DNA of 40,867 nucleotides from IMG/VR virus record IMGVR_UViG_3300044998_000504, positions 1-40,867 of that record. One strand, 5' to 3'. The stretch comes from a virus. Shown in pieces: positions 6,001-38,557 of this stretch; the first letter of the stretch is position 1; each line of letters begins with the position of its first letter. The translations under genes and the position numbers were made by a program. Under the pieces are notes generated by a model. The model was not told the origin of the DNA. It saw nothing but the letters and a program-made list of their open reading frames with translations, and made no database searches.

Positions 6001-8471
6001 GTCTGTCACAGAAAGAGTTCGACGCCAAGTACAACGAACAGTCGGTGCTAGAACTCAAGCTGAATACGAAGAAAGGTCTACGTAACGAGTTTTCGGAAGA
6101 AATTCTGACTGACGCTGAGATCAGCACGATCGTAAAACTTGCAGCGATTCCGGGGCAGTACCGTGGTCCGTACTTCCCGTTGTCGCGTTTCGGAGATTAC
6201 TCAGTTTACGCAGAGCGCGAAATATCGCGTCGCAGCTTTGCCGACAAAAAAGCTGCGCGCGAATACCGTAATAGCGTGCTGGCTAGCGATCCGACCCTTG
6301 AAGCAGTAATCGAAGGCGATACGACGGTAGTCGTTACTGAGAAAGAGTACCAACTCCACGAGACACGTACTGCAGCCGAGCAGGCTAAAAAGGAGTTAGA
6401 AGAACGGTACGGTGTGCCTGTAATCGTCCGTCTTCGCTCTGATTTTGTCTCTCGCGAAGATGTAATTTCTGGCGACGCTAGCCTAGCGACGCTGTTGAGC
6501 AAGCTTCAAGGTAACAAAGCGGCGCAAGCTGCGATCAAGCATTTTTATCTTCGTTCACTTGCAGAGGGGTCTTTCCGCAAGCACGAGATCAAGCGTAAAA
6601 AACGCCGTGGCACTAACCCGCAGGATCAGCACCGCGCGTTTGCAAGCTACTCAAAAGCGTCTGCGTACTACACGGCGCAGCTCAAACACGGCTGGCGGAT
6701 GGCTGAAGCTCGCGCGCAAATGAAGCGGATGGTCCGTGAGCACACGGATGAATCCGAGATTTCAGCAGTTCGCATGGGCCAGATCGTCCGCGAGATCAGT
6801 CTTCGCGACGACGCTACGGCAGATCCTACAGAGTTCACAAAGTTCGTTCAGCGCGGCACGTCTTTGGCGCACTTCATGCTCCTGACTTCGCCGTCCTACT
6901 GGCTCATCAATGCGTCACAGCCGTACCTCGTCACTCTGCCGTGGTTGGGGGCTCGGGCCGGTTACGGAAAAGCTGCTGCGGCACTTGCGAACGCGCAAAA
7001 GCTGATCGCGTCGCCGCTCTTGACTGAAGCTGTGAACTCGTGGGGTGGTGTAAAGGCGCTGATCAACAAGGTTGCTGCAGAAGACGCGTTCAGCGTACTT
7101 GATCAAGTCAAGAAGCACATCAAGGAACGCGGCGGCAAGATGGCCCCTGATTACCTCGACATGCTTCAACAGCTGCAGCGGCAGTCGATCATCGACTTGT
7201 CGTTTGTTGCTGAGCTGCGCGAAATGGCTAAAGGCACAGCTAACAAGCGCATGTCTAGGGTAATGGACGCCTCTCGCATCATGGCGCACTTGACTGAGGT
7301 CAACAATCGCATCGTCTCAGCAATTGCGGCTTACGATGTTGCGCGTACGACAAATCTCGATCACAAAAAGTCGGTCGAGTTTGCCAAGCAGGCCGTTTCG
7401 CTCACGCAATTCAACTACTCAGGTGCCAACAAGCCGCGGCTGTTCCAGCAGACCGGGCCGCTCGGTTCACTGGGACCTCTGCTGTTCCAGTTCATGCAGT
7501 ACCCGCAGCACATGTACGCGCTGATGGTCAGCGAGTTTTTGAGGGCGGTACGGACTGGTGGGCTGTCTCGTCAAATGGCCATAGAGACATTGGCGGGCCT
7601 ATTCATAACGCACTTAGCTGTTGCAGGAGCTATCGGAGTCACGCTGCAGCCGATCAAGTGGGCGCTCGGGCTCATGTTCGCTGCGTTTAACGACGATGAC
7701 GACCGCTGGCAGGATGTGCTTTCGGGTGAGACTTACGACAAGACGTTCCGTGAAATGGCAGCGGAGTTGTTCGGCACGGATGGTGGGCTGCTGCTCTCTA
7801 AAGGCATCCCTGCCGCGCTTGGTGCTGATGTATCAGACCGCATGTCTCTGGGCACGCTTTATTTCATCGACCTCAAACCGGAGACGGCAAATACATTCCT
7901 TGGGTCTCTTGCCATATCTTTCGGCGGTCCGCTGGTGGGCATTGGGTCGAATGCGTATACGGCTATTAGCGACTTCGGTAAAGGCGAGTGGTGGCGCGGA
8001 GTCGAGCGCATCATGCCCAAAATGGTGAAAGACTTCATGCAAGTCAAACGGTTTGCCGATGAAGGGCTGGTTTCAAACTATGGAGCCACGCTTATCGAAG
8101 AGAGCGATATCAGTCCAGGAGCCCTTTTCCTCAAATCGCTGGGGTTCCAGCCGACTTCGATCAACGAAATGTACGCTGCACGCTCGGCGATCGAAACTCG
8201 CAAGATGACTGATGAAGAGGCTGTCGCTTTGCTGCGTCGTATGTTTGTAAAAGCTAAGACTCCAGAAGAGCGTCAAGAAGTGCGCGAGATGATACTCGAG
8301 CATAACCAGCGCATGCGTCGCACGGGCGGCATCCCGATCACGTACGCTGACTTGATGCGCAGCCGCGCCAATGCCATGACTCGCGATCGTAATATTGCGC
8401 GGTATGGTGCGGACCTGCGTGGGTCTAAGGTACGCTATGCCGAAGAAGCAGAACCTTACGCAGTGGAGTGA
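3..8471 (+). CDS. Giant polyvalent virion-type protein with HExxH motif (5' partial)
   Basis: The frame is open from base 3, 17 codons before the first visible ATG at 54, so the N-terminus lies outside the window; 2,822 residues are visible. Numbered from ATG 54, it has Gly/Ala-rich hydrophobic stretches at about 95-140 and 175-270, Pro-rich linkers near 275-300 and 345-360, and two copies of a roughly 32-residue unit beginning PTRF[D/N]PYTGQGE at 317 and 373. A zinc-metalloprotease-like HEAVH lies at 1660-1664. Long charged helical stretches follow, then a motif QFNYSGANKPRLFQ near 2450 and a hydrophobic segment near 2510-2545. Giant proteins of this kind in short-tailed phages are usually internal virion proteins ejected with the DNA, often fused to enzymes. 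The place at the end of the virion block fits. Protease activity is inferred from the short motif only. Confidence 0.85.
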   Translation, partial: FADYGRALGAGIAGVGSMVSGAGEYIARRLAGKGETPFEQGAADLAQTFARGRRASAETAQEFVSSMSPEAQARMAREWTTLDPNKTIWQGDVGEFISSLSLQAAQAIPPSVATLLPVVVAFRAGMAPGALVYLGASEALMSLGSIAANIADEIEKAPEQELMEAPRYRELRTQLGDAAARQQLIREAQGYAPVVGGAVVGLISRTTGKFLEPVFTKGGGIGKRFATGFAAEAPQESSQSGAEQIAQNIAAQIYDNGRVWNEGVLESMVQGGAVGGLIGGGVGAAFGRRGSDPLPMPPPAPSASPEPPADVPEDIRAALKASEEASKAEAELRPTRFDPYTGQGELFPPTGQESVLGEAVRFPEPSPPPPPPPPGMLQRTLDLAPSEVQPTRFNPYTGQGEMFPAPGQESVLGEAVPFPEPTSEQAKANEAEWYPYSAEVPVTTEEAMMLPVPGPRAKNRAERLRYRALQKRQNELLGEQQERAELTKGMVRDEAQLDLFEPEPGVGSSTEMIRTGVRGVGRRELLGFETVAYDEGGRPIARVLNPSAEEANAVADKFAERYPEASVRVERRYGQRDVEESFTPITRQTFAGEEPSAEPLADIEAQLEDMQRPDSQRKGVYLSRANIESLRRSGMFERVRGVGVPLPNFDGKGGVVYAKDAETAKELLELRKSLPPEGMEQLLGYITGAGIEKPLGSDIVVQQRDSKDRVVRESLVATPEQAERLRKEFTTGDRTGVVLSLRDAMRRRASLVARDKRAADEAKSRRQTTEAVRTAVEEELGGGTEADTAERTAGRLTTVTPEGAATKLLSYAEIRRNQSREAQIDGFDLPKNRKFANDTLNERYAYLWDKYVTAQTRAAMAQTAEAKREADDAAEAARQQLVAFMKLNPSTTPEEKIVRVARRVSPETVARVERTQRELSDRVEPFRALPPIPDDLTFDSISKLEGDELDAMFVRAANQLAGMFKARPKKDDNTLGDEAVPFDGDEGTVFRVKGRTADELIEAMGKNDSSKRKLINRLRVLLAARKYGTAKGIGLTRMADALKLRRLRSRSGKGLAQGAVFDTNVLSAVKESQRLSESSVETRAETARQIAEAKQRAATLADELEALYRRMSDRTNPVFESIRTETKNGKLTDTAKDFLYARWYLAAFTQYLRALSKLQGLSIDFRNALKIANKTAENLGKLSPQNLVSELATLGRTEEREATISAARTDPTVLGSLRVPETRAKITKAQIQKVKRAATIDQQLRNNSLYENEIAPFMRALVEYVMSDGTSRVKRGAVYVGGPTKAMAVRASLALEKMKASGDSAAWRSLSQWFSEMGFKRTDEGGFSLSENGALPTEVLLLRRFNRRFGERNTDVDIPDVLRQEREGSKQAIMAQYLKDMKSAIKYRDQFDKFQITDAALERIATMQLRNDAAAKLREQITRHGASVADIVVAEERFFAALEDAGLAMPINDALKRWKVFMPDGTKTIRPIGPRILAKKISKSDGIKAMLEMYRERMLPSEDLAKYKPFKDLVEAKRRQVRENKPNRSAETRRQNKLIAEFERAKNRANDGLFYLEEGGTWEQYAEAGRNFSTLMDEAEGLTDLNSALIALWRGLPSNSGFAQVAQRILDLNMQVDVSWDYGKPLGDPAKLEKVPLGKFLTGQRMRIVLNRAYFDALRTQSGLDAANQRIAHVVLHEAVHAATTGAMLDSREVRFLMRGLLQAARAELRNQGDRKWYGLENEFEFVSEAFTNPEFQQKLAEIKIDATKTMWQRFIDFVRRIIGMPDTPKIENLLDAVLMTTDMLFKGVDVTNRDIPQLPMLDAGTRNKINDVFTRLQQTKEVRDRLRARVNESADSASTGVLAVMTMEQIRDFFGRYFQRDGDTPVIRNPLNEYIRAFSERNAMNSELMEDADRYSRDWTKLSETKPEAAAEMASIMQESTIAQAHPDLPIDHVDNEHLELDEAKAKHAELKRRFEALDLEAQTLYKKVRDFYRTSLKREIALQTLNAIRAIVVNTEGGLSQKEFDAKYNEQSVLELKLNTKKGLRNEFSEEILTDAEISTIVKLAAIPGQYRGPYFPLSRFGDYSVYAEREISRRSFADKKAAREYRNSVLASDPTLEAVIEGDTTVVVTEKEYQLHETRTAAEQAKKELEERYGVPVIVRLRSDFVSREDVISGDASLATLLSKLQGNKAAQAAIKHFYLRSLAEGSFRKHEIKRKKRRGTNPQDQHRAFASYSKASAYYTAQLKHGWRMAEARAQMKRMVREHTDESEISAVRMGQIVREISLRDDATADPTEFTKFVQRGTSLAHFMLLTSPSYWLINASQPYLVTLPWLGARAGYGKAAAALANAQKLIASPLLTEAVNSWGGVKALINKVAAEDAFSVLDQVKKHIKERGGKMAPDYLDMLQQLQRQSIIDLSFVAELREMAKGTANKRMSRVMDASRIMAHLTEVNNRIVSAIAAYDVARTTNLDHKKSVEFAKQAVSLTQFNYSGANKPRLFQQTGPLGSLGPLLFQFMQYPQHMYALMVSEFLRAVRTGGLSRQMAIETLAGLFITHLAVAGAIGVTLQPIKWALGLMFAAFNDDDDRWQDVLSGETYDKTFREMAAELFGTDGGLLLSKGIPAALGADVSDRMSLGTLYFIDLKPETANTFLGSLAISFGGPLVGIGSNAYTAISDFGKGEWWRGVERIMPKMVKDFMQVKRFADEGLVSNYGATLIEESDISPGALFLKSLGFQPTSINEMYAARSAIETRKMTDEEAVALLRRMFVKAKTPEERQEVREMILEHNQRMRRTGGIPITYADLMRSRANAMTRDRNIARYGADLRGSKVRYAEEAEPYAVE

Positions 8472-9495: not shown

Positions 9496-9739
9496 GTCGA
9501 CGCGCGAGTACTACGAGCGCTACCACGCAAGCCCCGAAGCCCGCCGTGAGCGCTCGATGCGCAATCAGGCGCGGCGGGAGATGGAAAAGAAGGGGCTTGT
9601 CCGCAAGGGCGACGGTAAAGACGTCGACCACAAGAAGCCGCTATCCCGTGGCGGCAACAACTCGAAAGACAATCTCAGGGTTCTGTCTCGGGCTGAGAAT
9701 CGGGGCTATCGTCGGGACGCAAAAAATCGTCCGATATGA
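9476..9739 (+). CDS. HNH endonuclease
   Basis: An 87-residue basic protein beginning at a GTG with AAGGAG seven bases upstream. The C-terminal half has the HNH pattern: DVDHKKPLSRGG (residues about 49-60) with the catalytic-type DH, then NNSKDNLRVLSRAENRG supplying the two Asn. There is no CxxC zinc pair. Small HNH proteins in phages act as DNA nickases, often with terminase during packaging; here the terminase is far away on the map. The 3' end overlaps the convergent primase gene by 65 bases. Confidence 0.82.
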   Translation: MASPTRESTREYYERYHASPEARRERSMRNQARREMEKKGLVRKGDGKDVDHKKPLSRGGNNSKDNLRVLSRAENRGYRRDAKNRPI

Positions 9740-12569
9740 TTTCGCTGCCGTTGAGGTACTCATCGAGTTTCTCGGTGGGTACCTCGTAGCAGCGCTGTGG
9801 AGGCAGCTCCCACTTTGTTCCGGCACCGAGTCGTACACGCACCTCGGTCATCCCGAGCTCACTCTTCATCCGCTGCAGTGTTGAGTATACCGGCATGCCG
9901 CGGAAATCAAGCCAACGGCGGATCTCCTGTTGCGGTATCCGCAGCAACTTGTCTTCGCGACTGAACACGTAGGCCAGCTTGTCTGACTTCGGCGCGCCGC
10001 CCGTGATATCCGGGATGTACGTCTCCATCTTCTGCTTCGGGCGTGGGAACTTGTCGACATGCAGCGCGCGGTCTTGATAGGTCTGCAGAAACGCCGCCAG
10101 AACTTCCGTCGATTCGAGCAACGCGCGCACTCCCGTCGTGCGCCCACGCAGCCTGTTCAGGTTCTTGAGCAAGAACGACGTCATCGACCGGACGTCGATC
10201 GAAGTAAGCTCAAGCCTGTTTGCAAGCTTCGCGCCGACAATCAGCACAGTCATCGCTGCAAACCAGTACCGCTCTGCCGCCTGCATGTTGGCGACCCTTG
10301 CGAGCTGAACGAATGTACTGTTGACCTGCTGTTCGATTTCTTCAATGTGTGTCGCAAGGTACTGCGCATATACGCGCCCAGCGTGACCGTAGTTGTGACT
10401 CATCTGATCGAACATGAGCGCGATCTCGGCACGATTGCGATCAGAAGCAAACGGCTCGACAGTCATCTCGAAAGCACGCACCACACCAGCATCGGTACCT
10501 TGCGCATAACGTGCCATCGCATCGAATATGGACTCATTGGACGCCGCGATAATCATCGTGTCCCATGAACCGGTCTCACGGACAGACGCGTTCGAGTCAA
10601 GCCGCATGCGTTCTTTGCCCTGCGTGATTTGGAACGCAAGCTTGGCAAAATCTTCGATCGTCTGACGGCCGCGAAGCTCATCCCAATAGGCAGGGAGGCT
10701 CTTCAGGAATCCCAGCTTGCGCGCAACAGACTTCGGTGTGTCATCCACCGAATTGATCGCGTCTTTCCCGCCCCACACGGCCTGTGAGACTTTCAACACT
10801 GACGACTTGCCTACACCACTGGCAGTAGAAACGATTGACAGTACCGCTCCCGACTGTCCTGTAAACCTGAGCAATGGCGTGCCAAAAGCGGCTGCAAGAA
10901 TTGCTGTAAACGCTGGATTGTTCTGCTCGGCAATGAACTTGGCCACCTTCTTCCATGATTCTATAGTCCCTCGCGGCTCGTACATTTTGGCAATTTCACG
11001 GAATTCACGTGCAGCGCGAACGTCGTTCCGCACGCGCCCGTCAGCGTAGAACGTTGTAGAGCCGCACGAGAAGCCGATGATCTTTTGCTCGCCGCCTTCT
11101 TCAGCGACCAGCCATCCGAGATACTCGGTCACATCGGCAACGCGACGGGCCGCTTGCAGTTTTTCAAGCCATGTGCTCATAAGGTCTTGGAAGCTCTTAG
11201 ATTCAGATCCTTTGAAGACAAGGCCGCAGTCGGCAAGCTGTTCCGTAAGCTTTCGGGGGTTGCCGAGAGACGAACCGGGCAGATGTACCGACCACGGCCT
11301 TGAGTTTTTGATACTGACGTCAAACTGAATGTCGTACTTACCTGTGGCGACGGAACGCGTTGCGCGCAGTGCGACAGGCACGTGCCGCAACACTTTCACC
11401 CATTCCTTCGTCGTTTTCCCATCACCTGCATCGACAATCATCATGCGCTCGATGCCGCCGTTGTTGTCGATCGCGCGCCACCCGATTGGTAAACCGTCGA
11501 TCGGTTCAACCTTCTCGACTCCGACTTGCAGGGGGGTCTTGATGAAACCGTAGTGCGGGCACGCCTGACAAATGGCAGGCTGGTACCCTTCGAAAGTCTG
11601 GCAGAGGGTAGGGCCAGCCGTGTTCTGCTTGCGCTGCTGCCATTTCAGCTCGGTGCTGCGGGGGTTGTAGCCCGGATGACCGTTGCTGACTTCGTGGAAC
11701 CAAAGGTCTCCATCTTCGCAGTGCCGCAGCAGCTGCAACATGGCGGTCCACTCGGGCTCTGTGGCGTCCTTGCCGTGGGTCTCGGCATGAAGCTTGGCGA
11801 CGCCGCAGTGTTTGATGATCTCGTCAAATCGGCTGGGCTCGCTCTTGCGAGGCTCGACTCCCCCAGATAATTCAGCAATCGCGTCTGGAGAGATGGCTGA
11901 AGGTCCGAGCTTTGACGTCCGCACCCACGGCATTAGCGGTCCGTCTAAATCGTCGTACTCAAAGGTTTTGCCACTCGTGTACAGAATCTCGACGGGTTTG
12001 GGGTTTGAGGGGTCTTTGAAGTTGAAAGTGCCCGGAGGGCGCAGCACCCGGCAGGCGTCGGCGGTGCAGGCCAGGTCGGCGGCTAACTGGTGCTGTTTCG
12101 CTGCCGCTTTGAGCGCCTCGGAGAGCCTCGCCCAGCGGTCCAGCGACACAGCCTCGGTCAATGGCCAGTAGACGTGCACCCCGTTCCCAGAGCCTACGAG
12201 GATGGCTGGCGCGGGCATGTTCGTGGCCTTGCAGAAAGCCCGCAGGGCGATCAGCACGTCTTTGACGGTGGGGTAGCCGCTCTTGAAGTCGATATCGAGC
12301 CACAGGGCCTTGAGCTGGGCCACATTGCTCCGAACCCGCAGGACCTTCTTCCCCTCGGCGTTCTTGTGAAAACCCTGTTTGTAAGTCGCGAGCGCGAAGT
12401 AGGCGTTGTACCCGTCTCGAGCGTAGCGCTCGACCAGCTCGACCGCGTCTGCTACTGATTGTACACAGGCGTGCTGAAACGCAAACCCGCCAGCCGAAGT
12501 CGGTACCGGTTTGGCGACGACCATCCGACCGGCAGGTACGACTGCCGTGAAAAATTCAGTCAAAGTCAC
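9675..12569 (-). CDS. AEP-type primase fused to a DUF927-like helicase
   Basis: A 964-residue replication protein. The N-terminal third looks like an archaeo-eukaryotic (PrimPol) primase: LWLDIDF near residue 90 carries the DxD metal site, VGSGNGVHVYWPL follows with the catalytic His region, then CRVLRPPGTFNFK. A middle domain resembles DUF927-type helicases, with a Walker A loop ASGVGKSS near residue 580 and a Walker B-like YWDEL downstream. It should synthesise primers and unwind DNA at the fork with the family A polymerase of the same operon. The start is GTG (12569) or TTG six bases in; GGAG sits just before the latter. It is the last gene of the replication operon. Confidence 0.85.
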   Translation of the reverse strand: MTLTEFFTAVVPAGRMVVAKPVPTSAGGFAFQHACVQSVADAVELVERYARDGYNAYFALATYKQGFHKNAEGKKVLRVRSNVAQLKALWLDIDFKSGYPTVKDVLIALRAFCKATNMPAPAILVGSGNGVHVYWPLTEAVSLDRWARLSEALKAAAKQHQLAADLACTADACRVLRPPGTFNFKDPSNPKPVEILYTSGKTFEYDDLDGPLMPWVRTSKLGPSAISPDAIAELSGGVEPRKSEPSRFDEIIKHCGVAKLHAETHGKDATEPEWTAMLQLLRHCEDGDLWFHEVSNGHPGYNPRSTELKWQQRKQNTAGPTLCQTFEGYQPAICQACPHYGFIKTPLQVGVEKVEPIDGLPIGWRAIDNNGGIERMMIVDAGDGKTTKEWVKVLRHVPVALRATRSVATGKYDIQFDVSIKNSRPWSVHLPGSSLGNPRKLTEQLADCGLVFKGSESKSFQDLMSTWLEKLQAARRVADVTEYLGWLVAEEGGEQKIIGFSCGSTTFYADGRVRNDVRAAREFREIAKMYEPRGTIESWKKVAKFIAEQNNPAFTAILAAAFGTPLLRFTGQSGAVLSIVSTASGVGKSSVLKVSQAVWGGKDAINSVDDTPKSVARKLGFLKSLPAYWDELRGRQTIEDFAKLAFQITQGKERMRLDSNASVRETGSWDTMIIAASNESIFDAMARYAQGTDAGVVRAFEMTVEPFASDRNRAEIALMFDQMSHNYGHAGRVYAQYLATHIEEIEQQVNSTFVQLARVANMQAAERYWFAAMTVLIVGAKLANRLELTSIDVRSMTSFLLKNLNRLRGRTTGVRALLESTEVLAAFLQTYQDRALHVDKFPRPKQKMETYIPDITGGAPKSDKLAYVFSREDKLLRIPQQEIRRWLDFRGMPVYSTLQRMKSELGMTEVRVRLGAGTKWELPPQRCYEVPTEKLDEYLNGSEIISDDFLRPDDSPDSQPETEP

Positions 12570-12655: not shown

Positions 12656-13867
12656 TTACTTCAAGATCGAGTCCAGCATGGCATCGAAGTCAGAGTCCGC
12701 AGCGGGTGCAGCAGTCGCCTTCTTCGGCTTGGCCTTCGGTGCCGGAGGCGCTTCCTCAGCTTCCTCCTCGACCTCGACCACGGCCTTCTTCGGCTTGGCC
12801 TTCGGTGCCGGAGGCGCTTCCTCAGCCTCTTCCTCGACCTCGACCACGGCCTTCTTCGGCTTGGCCTTCGGTGCCGGAGGCGCTTCCTCAGCCTCTTCCT
12901 CGACCTCGGCCTTCTTCGGCTTGGCCTTCGGTGCCGGAGGCGCTTCCTCAGCCTCTTCCTCGACCTCGACCACGACCTTCTTCGGCTTGGGCGGCGGGGG
13001 CGCGTCCTCGATCTCTTCCTCGTCAGCAGGGCGCGGCTTGGCTTTCTTCGGAGCACTTGCGGCAGCGGGAGCCGAATCGGTTTCAGCGTCCGTAGCTCCG
13101 GAGCCGTCCTCTTCGGTAGTTCCCGCCGCCGCAAGCTCATCAGCCTCCGCAAGAATGCGGTGCGCAATCTCGCTCTCGCGGAGAGCCAATACAGCGGCGG
13201 CTTCATCTTCGTCGAGCAACGTAGTTGCCCGGAACGTGAGCTTCGGATGCGCCACCTGAGCATCGAAACCGATCTTCGTACCCGTTGCGAACGGATAGAT
13301 CCCCCGCGGCGCGAGCGTGCGCTCGGCGTACTCTTTGAGGCTCATCAGAGACCCCGCAGGGATACGCAACAGGAACAGCGTGGCATCGCTGCCGCGCTCC
13401 TCCAGCTCATGCCGGAATGCCACGGCGATGCGGCGTGAGTCAGCGCAAGCACGGGTCTTGCCGCCGCTCGGTGTTGGCCTACCACTGCCCCACTGGTTCT
13501 TCGGGCAAACAGCACAAGCCTTTGAAATCGGACTCGGCACGGCTGCGTCGGGCTTGATGCTGTCAGCGGACCAGCACCGAGGAGCTTCATTCGTGCCCTC
13601 TTCGTAGCCCTTTTCGTAGTACAGCTTCGACAGATGCGGGTTCGAACGCACGAGAACCACTTCAATAGACGGCATCGCATCGCCATCCGCGTTCACGTAA
13701 TTATGCTCTTCGCCGCTCTTGCGAACACGCCAGACCTTGCCGCGGAACGAGATGATCGGAAACCCAGCATTCACACCACCGGTAATCTCGGTGATGACTT
13801 CGCGGGGATTGAGCTTGGCAAAAACAGCAGGCAGCTGCACTTTGCTAGTTGTGGCAGGGACAGACAT
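12656..13867 (-). CDS. Probable ssDNA-binding protein with repeated Lys/Glu/Pro tail
   Basis: A 403-residue protein; the ATG at 13867 has GGAGG five bases upstream. The N-terminal 230 residues are globular with a cysteine cluster (PRCWSADS, CAVCPKNQWGS, RACADSRR) suited to zinc binding. The C-terminal part is low complexity: four tandem units of EEEAEEAPPAPKAKPKKA type, then an acidic tip DSDFDAMLDSILK. A conserved N-terminal domain plus a flexible tail ending in an acidic-hydrophobic tip is the layout of phage ssDNA-binding proteins, whose tips recruit partners. It lies between helicase and primase genes, which supports this. I cannot name the family, so the function is an inference. Confidence 0.65.
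   Translation of the reverse strand: MSVPATTSKVQLPAVFAKLNPREVITEITGGVNAGFPIISFRGKVWRVRKSGEEHNYVNADGDAMPSIEVVLVRSNPHLSKLYYEKGYEEGTNEAPRCWSADSIKPDAAVPSPISKACAVCPKNQWGSGRPTPSGGKTRACADSRRIAVAFRHELEERGSDATLFLLRIPAGSLMSLKEYAERTLAPRGIYPFATGTKIGFDAQVAHPKLTFRATTLLDEDEAAAVLALRESEIAHRILAEADELAAAGTTEEDGSGATDAETDSAPAAASAPKKAKPRPADEEEIEDAPPPPKPKKVVVEVEEEAEEAPPAPKAKPKKAEVEEEAEEAPPAPKAKPKKAVVEVEEEAEEAPPAPKAKPKKAVVEVEEEAEEAPPAPKAKPKKATAAPAADSDFDAMLDSILK
12717..12974 (-). repeat. Four in-frame tandem repeats (66, 66, 60, 66 bp)
   Basis: Nearly identical units at 12717-12782, 12783-12848, 12849-12908 and 12909-12974 encode 22, 22, 20 and 22 residues of the tail of the probable ssDNA-binding protein. A degenerate fifth unit follows to about 13010. 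The 60-bp unit lacks two codons. Such repeats expand and contract by slippage, so copy number probably varies between relatives. Confidence 0.9.
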
Positions 13868-14256
13868 CAAGACCTCCGAATGTTGATTGCTTGCGTGACT
13901 GAAAACTTCACACCGGGCGGCAGGTCACCAGCTTCTGCCTGCTCAGCGACAAACGTTTTGTTTGCTTTGATATCGAGCGCGTCCCACATCTCGTGTTCGC
14001 GCACCCACGCCATGAACGCGGCAGGGTCTTCGACACTGGCGCTCGTACGGTTGGTACGGTAGACCGTGCCGACACCTTTCACAGCAAGGTTATCGCTACC
14101 GTTGGCATTCAGGAATTCCAGTAGCTCCGCCTCGAGTTTTTTCATCGCCGCTTTTGGGCGCTCCAAACTTGCTTCGAACTCGTCTTGCGCCGCCTTTATG
14201 TGATCGCGCAAGCGGATGTACTGCGCGATTTTTTCGGCGGGAGTTGTTCCGCTCAT
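13867..14256 (-). CDS. Conserved phage protein of the replication operon
   Basis: A 129-residue protein with a strong ribosome binding site (GAGGAGG seven bases before the ATG). The N-terminal 60 residues are helical and probably coiled-coil (EKIAQYIRLRDHIKAA onwards). The C-terminal part (AFMAWVREHEMWDALDIKANK, then LPPGVKFSV) matches a widely seen phage protein encoded beside ssDNA-binding proteins; its role is not established to my knowledge. The stop overlaps the next gene's start by one base (TGATG) and its own start overlaps the helicase stop (ATGA), so expression is coupled to both. Confidence 0.7.
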   Translation of the reverse strand: MSGTTPAEKIAQYIRLRDHIKAAQDEFEASLERPKAAMKKLEAELLEFLNANGSDNLAVKGVGTVYRTNRTSASVEDPAAFMAWVREHEMWDALDIKANKTFVAEQAEAGDLPPGVKFSVTQAINIRRS

Positions 14257-19178: not shown

Positions 19179-21050
19179 CTATTTGCAATGGCCCAATGTG
19201 GGGCCGTAGTTGACTTCTACTTCTATGGGCAGACCCTCTGCCCACTCTGCAGGACGCCGCATGATCTCTGCGATGTCCTTCGAGTACTGGTCAGCATACG
19301 CTTCGGGGACGACGTAGTTAAGCTCGTCGTGCTGTTGTAGCACAGGCTTGAGATCAAGCTCGCGCCAGATCTCCAACATGTATTTCATGATCAATGCGCG
19401 TGCCAACGCTTGGACTACGTTTTCTGTAACTTTGCCGCCCCAGAGTGTGCGGACTTCCCTCCCAGAAAACGTGTATACAAACCCTTCGTAGCCGGAGAGT
19501 TTCGACTCCTCGCCGACGGAATACTGTTTCCAGCGTAGCTGCGGGTAATGCAAGGTCAGTCCAGTAGGCAAAGTGATGCCCGCTTTCGTCAAAGTGACAG
19601 GGCCGACCTTTGCTTGCGCGTTCGAGCGTGTCACGGTCTCTAGAGCTTGGTCGAACCTGCGCCAGAGTGCCGGGATGTGCGGGTACGTGTCGCGATAGAC
19701 ATTCACCATCTCAGTGCATTGCAAGAGGTCAAACTTCATGCCGTCCTTGCGTAGCGTCGCCTGCAAGCGAGAAGGCCCCATGCCATACCCGAGACCGAGG
19801 ATGCAGGTTTTTCCGACAAACCGCCGCCGCTTGTCCTCGGCAGAACGATCTTTGACTGTCTCGGTTTTGAACACACGCGTAGCAAACGCGGAGTAGATAT
19901 CCTCTTTATCGGCAAACCCGCGCACCAGCGCCTTTTCTCCAGCCAGCCATGCCGTAATGCGGGCTTCAATCTGCGCGAGATCAGCAGCTAAAACGACATG
20001 CTTCTTCGGGGCTTTGATCCCGAAACGCATCTTGCTCTTGTCGATGCGCGGGAAGTTCTGTGCGTTGATGTTCTCTGTGCCGCCGTAACGCCCGGTGTGC
20101 GCGCTGTAATACATCAGCGGCACGCGGAACCACCGATACTTCAAGCCGATGTCCAGCAGCCGCTGATAACGCGTTACTTCGAGTGTGGACTTGACGCCGA
20201 GCCGTGCCGCGATCAGTGCCCCAATGACCGGATCGTCGGAATACTGCTCTTCGAGCTCCTTCCATCCAGCATCCGTCTTCGCCAGCGCAGGCGTAGGCTT
20301 GTTAGTGCTCGGTGATATCTTCGTTGGGACTTCAACGCCAAAACTGTCAAGCAACTTTGCAAACTTGACGTTCGACGCCAAGTCAGCCGCCGTGACCGAA
20401 GCGGGAAGCGCCGAAAGCTGCATCTCTCTCTTAGCGATCACCGCGCCAAGCTCTTCGCTCATCACATTGGCATCGACCAGAAGTCGAGGCTCCAGATACA
20501 TGCGCAGAGTCAGGTCGATGATATGCAGCTCGTCTACCGGGATCGTCGGCAGCATGTGCTTGAACAGCAGGTACTCGCTCTCGCAGTCGTTTATGCAGTA
20601 CGCGCCATACTCTTTCCACTCCTGCCGTGAAAGCGAGTCGCGAGTGCGCCCCTTCATGTTCTTGACGGTAGTCCCTTTCTCGCCGAGCCCGGTGTGCTCA
20701 AGACATGAGGCAAGTGAGACTGACGGGATGTAGGGTTTGAGGTGCACGTTCGCCATGAATCGCGTGCATAGCATTTTGGCAGGGAGCCTGCCGAAGACCT
20801 TCTGAAGCACCAGCCCGTCGAACATCATGTTGTGGGCGATGACGCAAGCATCCCACAGCCCAATCTCATCGAACCACTTGGCAAGCTCTGAGACAGTGCC
20901 AGTACGCCATACGGCTGGGGCTTGGCCGACTTTTGCGCCGACCATGATGATGTCGAATCGAGGATCGTTTACGTAGTCCTCGGTGGACATCTTGGACAGG
21001 CTGTACTCCGAGTCATAGTACGTCTCGAAGTCTAAGACAATCGACTGCAT
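19179..21050 (-). CDS. Family A DNA polymerase with 3'-5' exonuclease
   Basis: A 623-residue replicative polymerase. The exonuclease motifs are LDFETYY (D7, E9), IAHNMMFDG near 75 and YCINDCESEY near 155. The polymerase motifs are motif A AADLAQIEARITAW near 355, motif B RRRFVGKTCILGLGYGMG near 420, and motif C QQHDELN with H574, D575 and E576. There is no 5'-3' exonuclease domain, as is usual for phage polymerases of this family. The start overlaps the HicA-like gene's stop by one base (TGATG), with GGAG five bases upstream. It replicates the phage genome with the primase-helicase and ssDNA-binding protein of the same operon. Confidence 0.95.
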   Translation of the reverse strand: MQSIVLDFETYYDSEYSLSKMSTEDYVNDPRFDIIMVGAKVGQAPAVWRTGTVSELAKWFDEIGLWDACVIAHNMMFDGLVLQKVFGRLPAKMLCTRFMANVHLKPYIPSVSLASCLEHTGLGEKGTTVKNMKGRTRDSLSRQEWKEYGAYCINDCESEYLLFKHMLPTIPVDELHIIDLTLRMYLEPRLLVDANVMSEELGAVIAKREMQLSALPASVTAADLASNVKFAKLLDSFGVEVPTKISPSTNKPTPALAKTDAGWKELEEQYSDDPVIGALIAARLGVKSTLEVTRYQRLLDIGLKYRWFRVPLMYYSAHTGRYGGTENINAQNFPRIDKSKMRFGIKAPKKHVVLAADLAQIEARITAWLAGEKALVRGFADKEDIYSAFATRVFKTETVKDRSAEDKRRRFVGKTCILGLGYGMGPSRLQATLRKDGMKFDLLQCTEMVNVYRDTYPHIPALWRRFDQALETVTRSNAQAKVGPVTLTKAGITLPTGLTLHYPQLRWKQYSVGEESKLSGYEGFVYTFSGREVRTLWGGKVTENVVQALARALIMKYMLEIWRELDLKPVLQQHDELNYVVPEAYADQYSKDIAEIMRRPAEWAEGLPIEVEVNYGPTLGHCK

Positions 21051-25546: not shown

Positions 25547-26605
25547 TTACGAACGGCTTGCTTGTGCAGCGGCAAGGATCAGGTCCTTGTTGTCGCGTGC
25601 CCATGCCCGGAAGCCATCGGACGACGCAAGTGCCGGGAGACGAGTCAGCATCGACCGCAGCCCTGCCACCTGATACTCCTTGCCCATGCGACCAAGGTAG
25701 GTGAACACGGCGTCCACCGTCTTGGCATCGGCACGATGCACGACCATTTGCATGGCCGCGTAGGTCGCATCCGGACGGTCAGGCACCGGTGCGTTCTTGG
25801 GGTCCTTGACGATCTCCTCGAACGTGGGCAGCTGCTCCGCCACGCGCAGGAACGCCACGAACTCGGCACCCGCACCTTCGCCGATGTAGCCCTGTGCCAC
25901 CGCCGTGAACAACTCCATCGGCAACTTGCCAATGAAGTAACTCGCCTTGACCAACGAGCGTGGCGTGCAGAACTGCCCCGGCTTGTCGGGCACCTTGTCC
26001 TGAAACACCGTGCCCGGCTTGAACTTGGCAAACGCGATGGCAAACGGGTTGATGTTGTTTCGCTCCGCCCACTCGACAAACGCATCGAGCGACGGGTCGA
26101 TGGACAACTTCATTACGCGGTTGGAAATGAACGCCAACTCACGCTGCACACCGGACCGGTCACTCTCGCGATTGCTCGCAGCAATGACAATGTCCGTGAT
26201 GTTCAGCTGCGTCTCGCCCACGCGCCCGTTGAGCAGCAGCTCGGCAGCGGGCTTCTGCACATCGGGCGGAGCCTGCCGAAACTCATCCAGAAAGATGATG
26301 TTGTATTTCGGCGAGCCCTTGCCGGGAGCCCACGGGGCTCGGGTGGTTCTGGTGATCGCAACGCCGTCCTCGTGGTCGGGCATGCGGAAACCCGCAACGT
26401 CGGGTGCCTCGCACGTGGAAAGGAAAAACTCAGTGAGACCGACGGGCTCACCGAGCTCCTTCTCCAAACGCGCGCGCACCTGACGCACGATAGACGACTT
26501 GCCGATGCCGGGGCCGGACTGCAACTCGATCGAGAAACGCTCGCCGGTCGAGAATTGCAGCTTGGCAGTGGCAACAATGATGTCAGCAGCTTGACGAAGA
26601 TCCAT
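25547..26605 (-). CDS. MoxR-like AAA+ ATPase
   Basis: A 352-residue ATPase starting at ATG 26605 (GGAG six bases upstream; the longer TTG frame is less likely). Walker A is GPGIGKSS near residues 31-38, Walker B IIFLDEFRQA near 108, sensor 1 IVIAASNRE near 145, and a Pro-rich insertion FCTPRSL near 215. The arrangement is that of MoxR/CobS-like ATPases, which form rings and remodel partners together with VWA proteins. The VWA partner lies two genes downstream in the same transcript. It is the first gene behind the promoter at 26625-26653. Confidence 0.9.
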   Translation of the reverse strand: MDLRQAADIIVATAKLQFSTGERFSIELQSGPGIGKSSIVRQVRARLEKELGEPVGLTEFFLSTCEAPDVAGFRMPDHEDGVAITRTTRAPWAPGKGSPKYNIIFLDEFRQAPPDVQKPAAELLLNGRVGETQLNITDIVIAASNRESDRSGVQRELAFISNRVMKLSIDPSLDAFVEWAERNNINPFAIAFAKFKPGTVFQDKVPDKPGQFCTPRSLVKASYFIGKLPMELFTAVAQGYIGEGAGAEFVAFLRVAEQLPTFEEIVKDPKNAPVPDRPDATYAAMQMVVHRADAKTVDAVFTYLGRMGKEYQVAGLRSMLTRLPALASSDGFRAWARDNKDLILAAAQASRS

Positions 26606-26624
26606 GTGATTCTCCAATGGTTAG

Positions 26625-30338: not shown

Positions 30339-30342
30339 AGAC

Positions 30343-30387
30343 GGTCGGCGCGGGCGCGGTCGGCGCGGGCGCGGTCGGCGCGGGCGC
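30343..30387. repeat. Three exact 15-bp tandem repeats
   Basis: GGTCGGCGCGGGCGC three times in a row, directly after palindrome copy 8 and outside any credible gene. Confidence 0.9.
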
Positions 30388-30400
30388 GTGATAACGCGAG

Positions 30401-30883
30401 CTACTCGCGCAGCCAGTCGTCTTGCCGACTGCGCCGTCGGGCGGCACGGGTGCGCGCCTCGGCACGGGCAATGCTGGCATCGGTGGCCAGACGGCGGCAG
30501 CCACGTCGCGTCAAAGCCCCGTATACGGCATACCAGCGGGCTTCGCGCGATCCGGGTAGGAACCCATTGCTGCCGAGCGGGCGCAGCGCACGCGACAATA
30601 GGGGCCAGTCCGTGTCCGGGTTTTCGAGGTCGAGGTAGAACCGCTGGTGCCGGGGTGGGGGGTGGCAGGGGGCGAGGGGTGCGGTCTGCTTCAGGCGCCG
30701 GAGGATGCGCGTCAGGGCGCGCGCCACGCGGCGGTGTTCCAACGAGTTCTGGTTGCGCACGGCCTGACGGTAGGCACGGAGGGCTTGGTAGATGGCCGCG
30801 GTCTGGCGCAGCGTCAGGCGCAGGCGCGGAGCGACGCAATGGGCAGCGCCGTAGGCAACATTCGGCAGGCGAGAGTGTGTCAT
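30401..30883 (-). CDS. Basic hypothetical protein, first gene of the accessory operon
   Basis: A 160-residue strongly basic protein; ATG 30883 with GGAG six bases upstream is preferred over the longer frame. It has an Arg-rich helical N-terminal half (RVARALTRILRRLKQT), a middle RFYLDLENPDTDW and LPGSREARWYAVYGALTRRG, and a basic C-terminal tail. Composition fits nucleic-acid binding. It lies directly behind the inverted-repeat control region and two palindromes, so it may be expressed early. Confidence 0.55.
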   Translation of the reverse strand: MTHSRLPNVAYGAAHCVAPRLRLTLRQTAAIYQALRAYRQAVRNQNSLEHRRVARALTRILRRLKQTAPLAPCHPPPRHQRFYLDLENPDTDWPLLSRALRPLGSNGFLPGSREARWYAVYGALTRRGCRRLATDASIARAEARTRAARRRSRQDDWLRE

Positions 30884-30902
30884 GGCTGTCTCCGAGTTTT
30901 CG

Positions 30903-30917
30903 GCACACAGTGTGTGA
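30903..30917. repeat. Palindrome copy 9 (15 bp form)
   Basis: GCACACA-G-TGTGTGA, symmetric changes at both ends, 10 bases upstream of the ribosome binding site of the gene at 30401-30883. Confidence 0.8.
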
Positions 30918-30930
30918 CGGATTGGGCAGT

Positions 30931-30945
30931 CCACACAGTGTGTGG
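30931..30945. repeat. Palindrome copy 10 (15 bp form)
   Basis: Perfect CCACACA-G-TGTGTGG, 28 bases from copy 9 and touching the first TCATTGCCAA inverted repeat. Confidence 0.92.
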
Positions 30946-30995
30946 GGATCATTGCCAAAGTTGGAAAAATGTGGAACCTAGATTGGTAATGATCC
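30946..30995. repeat. Inverted repeat pair 1 (TCATTGCCAA / TTGGTAATGA)
   Basis: Arms GGATCATTGCCAA (30946-30958) and TTGGTAATGATCC (30983-30995), 13 bp with one G/T mismatch, 24 bases apart. Confidence 0.9.
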
Positions 30996-31024
30996 ACGCT
31001 AGCGGGCATAGTGTTTCCGAGTCT

Positions 31025-31155
31025 TACTGCATCATATCATCATTGCCAAAGGTAGAGCCCCATACAAGGGTTGGGGGATTTTAGACCCCGAAGGGTCTTT
31101 TTGCGAAAATCGCGTAGGGGGAGCATATGGTTGGTAATGATGATATGATGTAGTA
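31025..31155. repeat. Inverted repeat pair 2, 25-bp arms
   Basis: Arms at 31025-31049 and 31131-31155 pair over 25 bp with two G/T mismatches and 81 bases between. Each arm contains the CATTGCCAA/TTGGTAATG core extended by ATCATATC/GATATGAT. A small hairpin lies between the arms. Confidence 0.9.
31083..31102 (+). terminator. Possible plus-strand terminator
   Basis: Stem AGACCC (31083-31088), loop CGAA, stem GGGTCT (31093-31098), then TTTT. The stem is short and the T run modest. On the minus strand the same stem has a UUCG loop but no T run. No plus-strand gene ends here, so it could end a small RNA. Confidence 0.35.
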
Positions 31156-31187
31156 TATCTATAAAGTACTAGTAATAAAGCCTTCCC

Positions 31188-31231
31188 TCATTGCCAATCG
31201 GTGTGTCCGTTTACAACCCCGCTGGCAATGA
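31188..31231. repeat. Inverted repeat pair 3 (TCATTGCCA / TGGCAATGA)
   Basis: Perfect 9-bp arms at 31188-31196 and 31223-31231, 26 bases apart; the third pair of the same site. Confidence 0.85.
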
Positions 31232-31401
31232 CCGCCCCATCCCTGCACCCTTGCACCCTCACGTATGCGCCGTTATCACGCTTTTTCGCGCAAAAACTCA
31301 ATCTTTCAAAGTTTCCTGCGCCAAAACTCGATTTAGTTGGGGTCTTACTTTCAAAGTTTCGCATGGCAAAAATTTCGGCGGTTTTGGCTCACGATGACCT
31401 G

Positions 31402-31434
31402 AAAAAAGCCCCCGACCCTTGCGGATCGGGGGCT
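31402..31434 (-). terminator. Rho-independent terminator after the gene at 31456
   Basis: GC-rich stem GCCCCCGA (31408-31415) with TCGGGGGC (31426-31433), extended by an inner CC/GG, followed on the minus strand by TTTTTT. It ends the transcript of the gene at 31456-32028. Confidence 0.82.
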
Positions 31435-31438
31435 TGTT

Positions 31439-31453
31439 CCACACAGTGTGTGG
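31439..31453. repeat. Palindrome copy 11 (15 bp form)
   Basis: Perfect CCACACA-G-TGTGTGG between the stop codon of the gene at 31456 and its terminator, the same placement as copies 1 and 2. Confidence 0.92.
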
Positions 31454-31455
31454 GA

Positions 31456-32028
31456 TTAGGCGATCTTCAGCCCGAGAGATTCAGCGGCCGCCAGAATTGC
31501 GGCTTTCTTCTCGCCACGCGCATGCTTGAACCACGCCTTCAGCGCGCGCGCCGCGTTCGCCGCATAGTCGGCTTTCGCAGCATCGTTCGTTTTCTTGCCG
31601 CGAATGTACTGGACCATCGCCTTTGCCGCGGCTTCGGGCTTCTCGCCCTTGCGCACGGCGCGCGCCGCGGTCATCAGATGATGATGCGTGCAGACGCCTG
31701 CACCATCCTTGATGATCTCACGCATGACCGGAATCGCCGTGTACGTGTCCAGCACGAGCGACCAATTGCGCAGCACGTTGTCGCGAGTCGCGGGCGCCAG
31801 CGCCTTCAGCGTATTCGACTTCTCGACCAGCGACATGATGCCGGCGATGCCCTTCTGGCCGATCGGCTTACCCTTCGCGACGGACTGCGCAATCCCACAC
31901 ACGTGTGTGAGAAACGAACCCGAATCGCCGATGCCCTTGATGCTGTCGACGACTGCGGCCGCGATCTTGTTTCGGCCCGCGTTGTCGATCACCGCGGTTT
32001 CGACTTCGACAGTTTTGCTCTTTGTCAT
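31456..32028 (-). CDS. Hypothetical Ala/Lys-rich protein
   Basis: A 190-residue helical protein (ATG 32028, AGGAG nine bases upstream) encoded as a single-gene transcript between the strand switch and a terminator. It contains RNKIAAAVVDSIKGIG, a central RDNVLRNWSLVLDTYTAIPV, a His cluster VCTHHHLMTAARAV, and basic Ala/Lys helices at the end. No known domain is recognised. Its isolated, first position suggests an early-expressed protein, possibly DNA-binding. Palindrome copy 12 lies in its 5' half. Confidence 0.65.
   Translation of the reverse strand: MTKSKTVEVETAVIDNAGRNKIAAAVVDSIKGIGDSGSFLTHVCGIAQSVAKGKPIGQKGIAGIMSLVEKSNTLKALAPATRDNVLRNWSLVLDTYTAIPVMREIIKDGAGVCTHHHLMTAARAVRKGEKPEAAAKAMVQYIRGKKTNDAAKADYAANAARALKAWFKHARGEKKAAILAAAESLGLKIA
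31895..31910. repeat. Palindrome copy 12 (16 bp form), inside the gene at 31456-32028
   Basis: CCACACA-CG-TGTGTGA, read as LTHVCG in the gene, same phase as the other intragenic copies. Confidence 0.85.
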
Positions 32029-32111: not shown

Positions 32112-32379
32112 GAGTTAAGCGGTCGAGGGGTGCGGGGGTACCGGACCACGGGGGTGGGGGGGTGACGGGGGCGCTTACCTCTTCCACCCCCACATCCCCC
32201 AAAAATTACAACACACACGATTGACACACGAAACCCTAAAACCCCTCGTACCCCCCACCCTCAAAACCCCGCCACCAAAACCCCTCGCACCCACACCCCC
32301 AAAAACCCCACCCCAAAACCCACACCACACGAAACACACACTATTGACATCCCCCCTGCCGATAACACACAATACGCAC
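32112..32379. other. Divergent intergenic region with G-run and C-run blocks
   Basis: Runs of G (four to seven) on the plus strand at 32127-32171, then runs of C at 32184-32325 with AAAACCCC-type spacing, giving an abrupt skew change near 32175. Both strands could form G-quadruplexes. Two ATTGACA words (32220 and 32343) could be -35 elements for the plus-strand operon. No gene is credible here; the open plus frame encodes only Pro/Thr/Lys-rich text. Confidence 0.6.
32344..32375 (+). promoter_or_regulatory. Possible promoter for the plus-strand operon
   Basis: A perfect -35 TTGACA (32344-32349); the -10 at the expected 17-base distance (ACACAA) is poor. A start near 32380 would coincide with the ATG of the first gene, which has no ribosome binding site. 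Confidence 0.35.
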
Positions 32380-36454: not shown

Positions 36455-37157
36455 CGTGATCTGCTGGAAATGGACTCCACGGCATCAATACCGCAGTCAA
36501 TTCAGTGCAGACCATGTAAATACGCTACAGCGCATGGTTGCGCGCAACTACGCGGGCGAGCATGAGTTCGTTTGCATTACTGATAATTGGAAAGATTTGG
36601 ACAGTGCTGTGCGCGTAATTCCGCTTTGGAAAGACTTAGCGCATATAGACAGTCCGCATGGCATTTACAATCCGAGCTGCTATCGTCGGCTCAAGCTGTT
36701 TTCGCTTGAAGCTGTAGAGATCATCGGGAACGATCGGTTTTTGTCACTTGATTTGGATACGGTCATTACAGGCGATTGTGCGCCGTTGTGGGATCGTCCA
36801 GAAGATGTAGTGTTCTGGGGCGATGCTTCTCGAACTACCCCGTACAACGGCTCGATGTGGCTTCTTCGTTCAGGTACGCGCACGAAAGTCTGGACTGAGT
36901 TCGATCCCATCGAGTCGCCACGTCTTGCGCAGCGGGCTGGATATCACGGATCTGATCAGGCTTGGCTCAGTTATATCCTTCCCGGAGAACCGCGCTGGAC
37001 GAGCGCTGACGGCGTTTTGTCATATCGGTGCGATTTGAGACAGTACGATTACATGCTACCGAAACACGCGCGTATCGTATTTTTTAATGGGCATACAGAC
37101 CCGTGGTCGCCGTCTGCAAAGCGCAAATGCCCGTGGATAGAAGAGTACTATCGTTAG
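36441..37157 (+). CDS. Family 8-like glycosyltransferase
   Basis: A 238-residue protein starting at GTG 36441 with AGGAAG upstream. It has the GT-A pattern: HEFVCITDNW, a long loop, then RFLSLDLDTVITGD with the DxD motif near 100, FWGDASRTTPYNGSMWLLR and a His/Asp-containing end (YHGSDQAWLSYIL). It likely transfers a sugar using a UDP-sugar. It is the last plus-strand gene before terL; the two stop codons overlap by four bases. Confidence 0.75.
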   Translation: MAKLSVICWKWTPRHQYRSQFSADHVNTLQRMVARNYAGEHEFVCITDNWKDLDSAVRVIPLWKDLAHIDSPHGIYNPSCYRRLKLFSLEAVEIIGNDRFLSLDLDTVITGDCAPLWDRPEDVVFWGDASRTTPYNGSMWLLRSGTRTKVWTEFDPIESPRLAQRAGYHGSDQAWLSYILPGEPRWTSADGVLSYRCDLRQYDYMLPKHARIVFFNGHTDPWSPSAKRKCPWIEEYYR

Positions 37158-38557
37158 GTCCATCCGACTACTGATGGTTTCGGCCGCCTCTGCACCGTGG
37201 CGCGCTCGAGTTTCTTGCCGATGTAGTTGTTCGTCATTCCAAGCGCAAGGTACTGCAGGCAATCGGCAAGATCTGACCATGGGTGGGTCTTTTCCGGGCC
37301 TTCTTCGAGGTTTCCATCTTTCTTGCGCTTGTAGCGATAGTTGAATTTGAGCGCTTGAACAAGTTGCGGACATCCATGCCCACAAATCAGAATTGCTGGC
37401 CCACCGTCGATCTGGCGAAGAAAGAGCTGCTCGACCGCACGAAGGCGTGGATCAATGTCGTTGGTCGGAGCAGGGTAAATCTTGAACCCAAGACGCTTCA
37501 AAACGTCAAACGCGCTTTCTTCCGAGATTTGACTTTTGAACGCTCCGGATGGGTCTCCGATCATGAAGTTCGAGAATCCCGGAAAGTGCGCGAATAGTGT
37601 CGGTTTGATGTCGCTGACCGCAAACTGCTCGATGCCGGAGTCTTTTGTCGTGATCTCCCTGAAGACTACAAGACGCCCACGCGCGTCGATCTGCGCGATC
37701 AGTGACGCTGGCGTGCGGCCGAAGTCTTGACCAATCATCAACGGACGTCCCGGTATAGGCTTGACGTCGTTGTAGGTCACATGGAAATCTTGGCGGAAAC
37801 TTGCGCGCCATACAGCTTGTCCTGAGAGTGACTTCCCGTACTTTGCGTGAACGTGAACGTCGACCCAATCGGCACTGTTTGCTTCGATTAGGCTTTCGTA
37901 GTAGTTCTCGCGGAGGTTTTCACGGTTCTCCGCGTTGGGGTCCATGCCACCGGGTTGTTTGTAGAGTGCCCAGTTGCGCGGTTTCTCGATCTCGAGCTTT
38001 TTGAACCAATCGCTGTCTTCGTCTGGCGGGTTAGACTCGCCAATGATTCCGCACCATTTGTTTTTCGAGACGCCAAGCGGTCTGAAACGGCCGACGCGTC
38101 CGAGCAGAGCTTCGACCGTGGAGATCGGGATTTCACGGAACTCCGACACCCATGCGCCAGTAATGTTCAGCGACAGAAGGCGCTGCTGGTCTTCTGGCTT
38201 GTCGAGCGGGATCATCATCCAGTCCGAGCGAATGCGTCCTTGAGTCGAGTGTACGAAGTCGAACACGATGGTTGAGTCTGTGACCTTGTATTGCATCACA
38301 GGCTGCAGCCACTTGCGGATGTCTTCGAGGATGGTCTGACGAAGCTGCTGTGCGGTGTTACGGACGATTACGAAACGCGTGTGCCGAACTCCTTTCGCAT
38401 CTGGATATTCTTCCAACATGCGACGGGCAAGCTCCATGATGCACCCAGTTGTTTTGCCAGAGCCATACGGCCCGAGAATCAGTCGAACTTCGTGCTCATC
38501 GTCGAGCATGAATTGCGAGATTGTCGGGGGTGCATTGTAGGAGACAACGTTACTCAT
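37154..38557 (-). CDS. terL: Terminase large subunit
   Basis: A 467-residue packaging motor. ATPase: Walker A GPYGSGKTT at residues 29-37, Walker B-like GAWVSEFREI near 140. Nuclease: MIGQDFGRTPASLI near 275 (first Asp), MIGDPSG near 335, and HPWSDLADCLQYLAL near 428 (last Asp). It cuts and pumps DNA into the prohead through the portal. The start overlaps terS by 8 bases and its ribosome binding site is weak, so it is probably coupled. Confidence 0.93.
   Translation of the reverse strand: MSNVVSYNAPPTISQFMLDDEHEVRLILGPYGSGKTTGCIMELARRMLEEYPDAKGVRHTRFVIVRNTAQQLRQTILEDIRKWLQPVMQYKVTDSTIVFDFVHSTQGRIRSDWMMIPLDKPEDQQRLLSLNITGAWVSEFREIPISTVEALLGRVGRFRPLGVSKNKWCGIIGESNPPDEDSDWFKKLEIEKPRNWALYKQPGGMDPNAENRENLRENYYESLIEANSADWVDVHVHAKYGKSLSGQAVWRASFRQDFHVTYNDVKPIPGRPLMIGQDFGRTPASLIAQIDARGRLVVFREITTKDSGIEQFAVSDIKPTLFAHFPGFSNFMIGDPSGAFKSQISEESAFDVLKRLGFKIYPAPTNDIDPRLRAVEQLFLRQIDGGPAILICGHGCPQLVQALKFNYRYKRKKDGNLEEGPEKTHPWSDLADCLQYLALGMTNNYIGKKLERATVQRRPKPSVVGWT

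Follow-up and report, generated by a model that had tools for sequence, protein, structure and literature searches.

The 40,867-base IMG/VR phage record analysed here (hereafter the window) carries six TCATTRCCAA sites in a gene-free region, which the initial annotation read as a candidate replication origin or master switch, and it raises the question of which function the cluster serves and which protein reads it. All six sites lie where that annotation had placed them (starts and orientations 30949 +, 30983 -, 31040 +, 31131 -, 31188 +, 31222 -). We refer to them as putative iterons 1 to 6: the plus-strand sites 1, 3 and 5 (30949-30958, 31040-31049 and 31188-31197) read TCATTGCCAA, the minus-strand sites 2 and 4 (30983-30992 and 31131-31140) read TCATTACCAA, and site 6 (31222-31231, also minus) reads TCATTGCCAG, with one mismatch. 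The three inverted pairs described by the annotation were recovered with the same coordinates and loops, that is, pair 1 (arms 30946-30958/30983-30995, loop 24), a central pair (31025-31049/31131-31155, 25-nt arms that are 92% complementary, loop 81) and pair 3 (arms 31188-31196/31223-31231, loop 26). Each of the central arms in 31025-31155, which contain iterons 3 and 4, can be read as a strong iteron and a degenerate one 8 bp outward (GGCAATGA|TGATATGA). Searching the window with up to one mismatch gave 13 matches where 3.6 are expected (maximum of 9 in 100 shuffles); the seven matches beyond the cluster are scattered and have one mismatch each, exact copies being confined to the cluster. 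The strongest feature, which is absent from the initial annotation, is that the spacings between the sites (34-57-91-57-34) are exactly mirror-symmetric around 31090, with iterons 1 and 6 as the outer mirror partners, an arrangement that has a chance probability of 6.4e-5 when the outer two sites are fixed and the four inner ones are placed randomly. Four of the six site starts also share a 91-bp period. No other dyad of its size in the window is better than the one formed by the 145-bp half-sites centred at 31090 (51% matched).

The sites occupy the middle of a 516-bp stretch (30884-31399) that indeed holds no gene and that was aligned with L003/L004. This non-coding candidate origin region is bounded on one side by the early operon and on the other by the probable intrinsic terminator of the upstream gene (31400-31441, minus strand; a GC-rich hairpin, then a T run on that strand). 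The AT-rich stretch that had been reported beside the central pair is the lowest-GC 40-mer of the window (31140-31179, 20% GC), and we delimit a candidate melting element at 31141-31181 (24% GC) between iterons 4 and 5; the lowest-GC 40 bp thus have iterons 1-4 on one side and iterons 5 and 6 on the other, which is the two-sided layout of PICI origins. With 53% GC, the 81-bp stretch that separates the central arms is not AT-rich. The upstream gene (31456-32028, minus strand) encodes a 190-aa protein with no assigned function, whose homologues in L003, L009 and L148 lie next to the origin, and in this subgroup a family of ~185-190-aa proteins directly adjoins the origin (L009 55-615, L148 4782-5330); a search of bacterial genomes with the 190-aa protein found nothing. 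On the other side, the first gene of the early or replication operon (30401-30883, minus strand, 160 aa) opens a long minus-strand operon spanning ~30883 to 9675, whose products include an ATPase (phrog_1297; 25547-26617, minus), a DUF2201 protein, a family A DNA polymerase (19179-21050, minus), a RecB-like exonuclease and an SNF2-type helicase, with the gene for a 964-aa DUF927 protein at the end of the operon. The large terminase subunit is encoded at 37154-38557, 6 kb from the sites.

Several other features of the window were observed. The palindrome CCACACAGTGTGTGG and its variants form a second repeated site, mostly at gene boundaries (25382, 26659, 30304, 30324, 30903, 30931, 31439, ~31895 and 32097), with 15 matches at up to three mismatches against 1.3 expected; other lineages have palindromes of their own (TTCACACGYACGTGTGAA in L009, TGTTAGTAACATTACTAACA in L025 and TTACACAGGGTGTGTAA in L148), and the CCACACAGTGTGTGG palindromes are probably a lineage-specific operator. 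A perfect 15-bp tandem repeat (CGGTCGGCGCGGGCG, 3.1 copies) lies between early-operon genes 1 and 2 (30342-30388), and a strand-asymmetric C-rich tract (ACCCCAAAACCCC units, period 39) lies in the gap preceding the plus-strand genes (32233-32326). A tandem repeat of period 66 (12717-13022; 4-5 copies, 91% matches) within ORF 12656-13870 suggests a repetitive low-complexity protein segment, and positions 54-8471 form one ORF of 2805 aa with an LPD39 domain, a very large polyvalent protein.

Cumulative GC skew, a check proposed in the initial annotation, turns 1.3-2.6 kb from the sites. In the window, G001, G002, G003 and RHph alike, its extremes lie at that distance from the candidate origin, and we regard the skew as compatible with an origin and as largely confounded with gene direction, given that the skew switch coincides with the change in gene direction. 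The terminase block, which lies on the strand opposite to its neighbours and has the same skew, provides the sole skew argument for a replication cause.

Conservation of the sites among relatives, the absence of which the initial annotation had taken as grounds for abandoning its reading, was found at two distances. In two contigs with neighbour proteins 88% and 97% identical to those of the window, the region is near-identical letter for letter, and the hairpin in the central loop is among the few places that have changed. More informative is L009, a 61.6-kb contig with a polymerase 67% identical and the same gene order, in which the proteins flanking the site region are 46% and 43% identical to those of the window (the latter value being for the 160-aa protein, found in the same place). 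Here four sites (852 +, 944 +, 1046 -, 1138 -) are spaced 92/102/92, compared with 91/91/91 in the window: iteron 1 is kept at 1138 - and iteron 6 at 852 +, and the central iterons 3 and 4 are kept as TTCATTGCTGA and TTCATTACCTA (at 944), respectively. The central arms of L009 differ in sequence from those of the window at several positions and are still 17/17 complementary, three two-sided changes preserving the complementarity in a by-eye comparison, and the AT-rich stretch lies on the same side as in the window. For iterons 2 and 5, retention in L009 is not convincing; the degenerate partners considered for them have 6/10 and 5/10 matches, respectively, at the corresponding places, which is within background, and were rejected.

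To reach beyond these phages, relatives were gathered by the early-operon ATPase, which was chosen as the marker because it lies kilobases from the sites, and this yielded 80 loci. By inspection, inverted arrays of different short words stand at the corresponding place in other lineages: ACTATAAAT in L048/L049, AACCGTC/GTTAGAC in L051, CTCTACGTC in L045, TTTCATTCCC in L057/L150, TGTTCGGAA in the records behind L025/L026 and TGTTACGAA in KPP25, with TTAGACGGTT and ACTATAAATA also among the iterons of other lineages. A blind test was applied to 45 loci, in which the AT-richest 150 bp upstream of the ATPase, extended by 300 bp on either side, were scored by the number of inverted pairs of the best 10-mer (up to one mismatch), with at least six pairs counted as positive; this test replaced a whole-locus scan for repeated 9-mers, as that scan was dominated by coding repeats. 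Twenty-five of the 45 loci were positive and 20 negative, compared with 0/135 random 600-bp regions and 0/45 second-AT-richest regions, and most of the positives also scored above all 40 of their dinucleotide shuffles. In 23 of the 26 positive loci (the window counted), iterons stand on both sides of the AT minimum, the positives without this flanking layout being L044, L078 and L120; the clusters of L044 and L078 may represent operator palindromes and not iterons, which makes the count of positives slightly generous. Inverted-arm gaps of 60-130 bp are not over-represented among the 80 loci (23 loci, versus 4-21 in other gap classes), and the arm-gap spacing was therefore not used by itself as evidence. 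A DNA-level search of GenBank phages with the region returned a sole match, which is unrelated.

We propose the 964-aa protein at the end of the early operon (9675-12569, minus strand; hereafter Rep) as the initiator. It combines an N-terminal AEP primase, a DUF927/AAA+ helicase (DUF927 domain, E 2e-19) and a C-terminal winged helix, and its closest solved structures are SaPIbov1 Rep (8tch) and SCCmec Cch (5dgk), whether searched as a single sequence (9e-12 and 5.6e-9, respectively), as a profile (1e-15 and 8e-16, with an AEP PrimPol at 2e-4) or by predicted fold (3e-13 and 2e-12), the model of full Rep being of moderate confidence (pLDDT 70). The N terminus matches the AEP primases 6zp9 and RepB', that is, the primase is fused as in the PICI type, and the helicase belongs to the DUF927/AAA+ self-loading family, again as in the PICI type. 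In the Rep alignment, D92, D94 and H132 of the primase, G587 and K588 of Walker A, and D630 and E631 of Walker B are invariant, and all 12 aligned members contain the DUF927 domain. Residues 815-938 (9756-10127, minus strand), which we propose as the iteron reader on the basis of the model and of covariation, were also modelled separately (pLDDT 88.6), and their helices and strands follow one another as in a winged helix; the best matches of this model, albeit weak, are a Cch chain and winged-helix DNA-binding proteins. Of the 45 records searched, 33 yielded a Rep orthologue (19/23 and 14/22 in the two sets), many of the remaining records being fragments. The gene lies ~18 kb from the sites (9675-12569 versus 30949-31231) and G001 is arranged likewise (rep 4918-7836, sites 50212-50507), so that the sites do not stand immediately 3' of rep.

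Rep proteins were compared between phages with the same and with different iteron words. Phages that share an iteron word have similar Rep C termini (residues 851-930, compared at similar AAA+ identity): 89% identity in the AAA+ part and 81% in the C terminus for the window and L122, 98% and 87% for L126/L127, and 73% and 76% for L159/L160. Pairs with different words give 65% and 32% (window and L123) and 57% and 32% (L123/L127), respectively. Across 19 proteins, the identity of the C terminus, once corrected for that of the AAA+ part, follows iteron similarity (Mantel p 0.0005; 0.002 for residues 736-850, 0.0065 for the N-terminal part of DUF927 and 0.06 for the primase), in a test that is partly confounded with kinship and uses iteron strings hand-picked by the analyst. 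These comparisons support the Rep C terminus as the iteron reader, and the iteron word appears to turn over along with the copying protein of the phage.

Taken together, the directly established features (that is, the sites, their symmetry, their conservation, the recurrence of such clusters in relatives and the homology of Rep) make it highly probable, as judged from sequence, that 30949-31231 is the replication origin of the phage. Of the two functions offered by the initial annotation, the origin is thus favoured by the layout, the recurrence and the type of Rep, whereas the master switch gained no positive evidence. We infer binding of the sites by Rep, the order of steps, the place at which melting starts and bidirectionality. 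The TCATTRCCAA 10-mers would be iterons bound by the C-terminal winged helix of the phage's own Rep, and we propose that Rep assembles there as two opposed complexes, given that the sites face each other and are mirror-symmetric. Rep may then open the neighbouring AT-rich stretch (31141-31181), the 81-bp central spacer being an alternative start of melting, and may load itself as two helicases that give rise to divergent forks, which would be primed by the primase domain of Rep and extended by the phage family A polymerase.

Other functions could be imagined for the same features. A phage regulator (that is, a cooperative repressor or activator) might bind the six sites as an operator and, by DNA looping, switch the early operon at 30883; the region directly precedes the first gene of that operon, the exact sites are found in no other place of the window, and origins and early promoters commonly occupy one region. 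We nevertheless consider an operator improbable, as no regulator gene with a recognizable DNA-binding domain stands beside the region, the cluster recurs around AT-rich DNA with a word that varies with the Rep C terminus, and the distributed CCACACAGTGTGTGG palindromes are better operator candidates; an operator array with an adjacent regulator and sites at several promoters was not found, the exact sites being limited to the gap. The 131-nt central element (31025-31155) might instead be a structured RNA or single-strand hairpin that works as a folded transcript, such as a primer for replication or an antisense RNA. Its fold is much more stable than those of shuffles (z -7.7), the L009 arms stay complementary through two-sided changes, and G-U is kept on the plus strand where the minus strand has A-C, yet the stability comes from the arms (taken alone, the loop folds no more stably than shuffles, z -0.98), L003/L004 do not retain the hairpin of the loop and the element has no Rfam match. 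Given that the facing arms in distant relatives are plain tandem iterons, arm complementarity needs no RNA, and with no conserved fold found beyond the protein-site arms, we regard this explanation as very unlikely.

The least probable of the alternatives, to which we give hardly any weight, is that the paired protein sites belong to a cos/pac, parS or res-like element for packaging, partition or recombination. Paired inverted sites with varied spacers do resemble resolvase and partition sites in outline, but no resolvase, ParA/B or integrase-like domain was found among the window proteins scanned, the terminase gene lies 6 kb away, and such a site gives no reason to expect covariation with a replication helicase. 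We also considered a protelomerase-type hairpin site and an N4-type hairpin promoter and rejected both, as the central sequence is not perfectly palindromic and we recognized no enzyme that would fit. A replication origin read by Rep remains the interpretation that we favour.

Origins are unidentified for most phages known as sequence only, and here a candidate origin, its proposed initiator and the recognition word can be named together from the sequence, the same procedure giving a candidate origin in about half of 45 related contigs. The matched pairs of Rep C terminus and iteron that nature provides open the specificity code of self-loading initiator helicases to direct testing, and a satellite-type origin organization in ordinary tailed phages bears on the origin of satellite replicons. 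More tentatively, we suggest as a possibility, and less than an expectation, that free-living tailed phages as a large group use a satellite-type origin with a fast-evolving lock and key of Rep C terminus and iteron, by which the origin is specified anew in every lineage. If this is true, the wider reservoir of this replicon could lie in phages rather than islands, and a changing word could exclude competing replicons or satellites that would otherwise borrow the phage's Rep.

How the proposed origin relates to known systems can be seen best from the PICI and SaPI elements. PICI origins consist of an AT-rich region flanked by two iteron sets, an organization that a 2018 survey described as common to all PICIs and shared with 'no other known bacterial replicon' (PMC6092414), and the C-terminal domain of SaPI Rep reads the iterons (PMC7581432). 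The phage region resembles these origins (for example, those of SaPIbov1 and EcCICFT073) in its short, lineage-specific iteron clusters on both sides of an AT-rich stretch, and in an initiator of the DUF927/AAA+ self-loading helicase family whose DNA-binding domain is C-terminal (predicted here) and whose primase is linked or fused. It differs from them in that the replicon, an ordinary tailed phage, encodes a polymerase and a terminase itself, that the origin lies upstream of the early operon and far from rep rather than immediately 3' of rep, that the iterons of the window are single, widely spaced and mirror-symmetric rather than in tandem sets, and that the AT-rich element is off-centre, between sites 4 and 5. 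The window is not a PICI satellite, as it encodes its own large terminase subunit, polymerase and 2805-aa LPD39 protein, and its relatives are phage-sized contigs of 58-66 kb. We suggest that the region may work like a PICI-type origin and do not class it as one, given that it does not lie beside rep and that the element is a phage.

SCCmec, with its putative origin, offers a second comparison, in that Cch, a DUF927 MCM-like helicase related to SaPIbov1 Rep (PMC7581432), is one of the two closest solved structures to the phage Rep, although Cch has no fused AEP primase. The C-terminal domain of Cch2 binds repeats adjoining its operon, and SCC replication has not been demonstrated in vivo (PMC7581432); the repeats bound by Cch2 are direct ones, and binding did not require its inverted repeats.

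Among isolated phages, Kochitakasuvirus KPP25 and Rhizobium phage RHph_TM27A share early-operon content with the window (a family A polymerase in both, and the ATPase and DUF2201 in RHph_TM27A), and in each an AT-rich gap of iteron-like character lies upstream (at 26.4-26.8 kb with TGTTACGAA words in KPP25, p 0.005; at 19.5-20.1 kb in RHph_TM27A, p 0.010). Neither record carries an annotated origin. At the place of the DUF927 Rep, KPP25 encodes a DUF5906 helicase-type protein (ORF056, L007:18775-21180), and from its sequence the initiator family seems to have been exchanged while the iteron cluster persists. In RHph_TM27A, EVB29_077 (L030:42248-45331) is annotated as a 'putative integrase' and carries a DUF927 helicase domain (E 1e-20), which makes a replication initiator the more likely assignment.

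At lambda ori and in iteron plasmids, too, an initiator encoded by the phage or plasmid recognizes repeats located next to AT-rich DNA. There, however, the initiator brings in the helicase of the host and most iterons are direct repeats, whereas the phage Rep, as the proposed initiator, is itself a helicase and its putative sites face each other.
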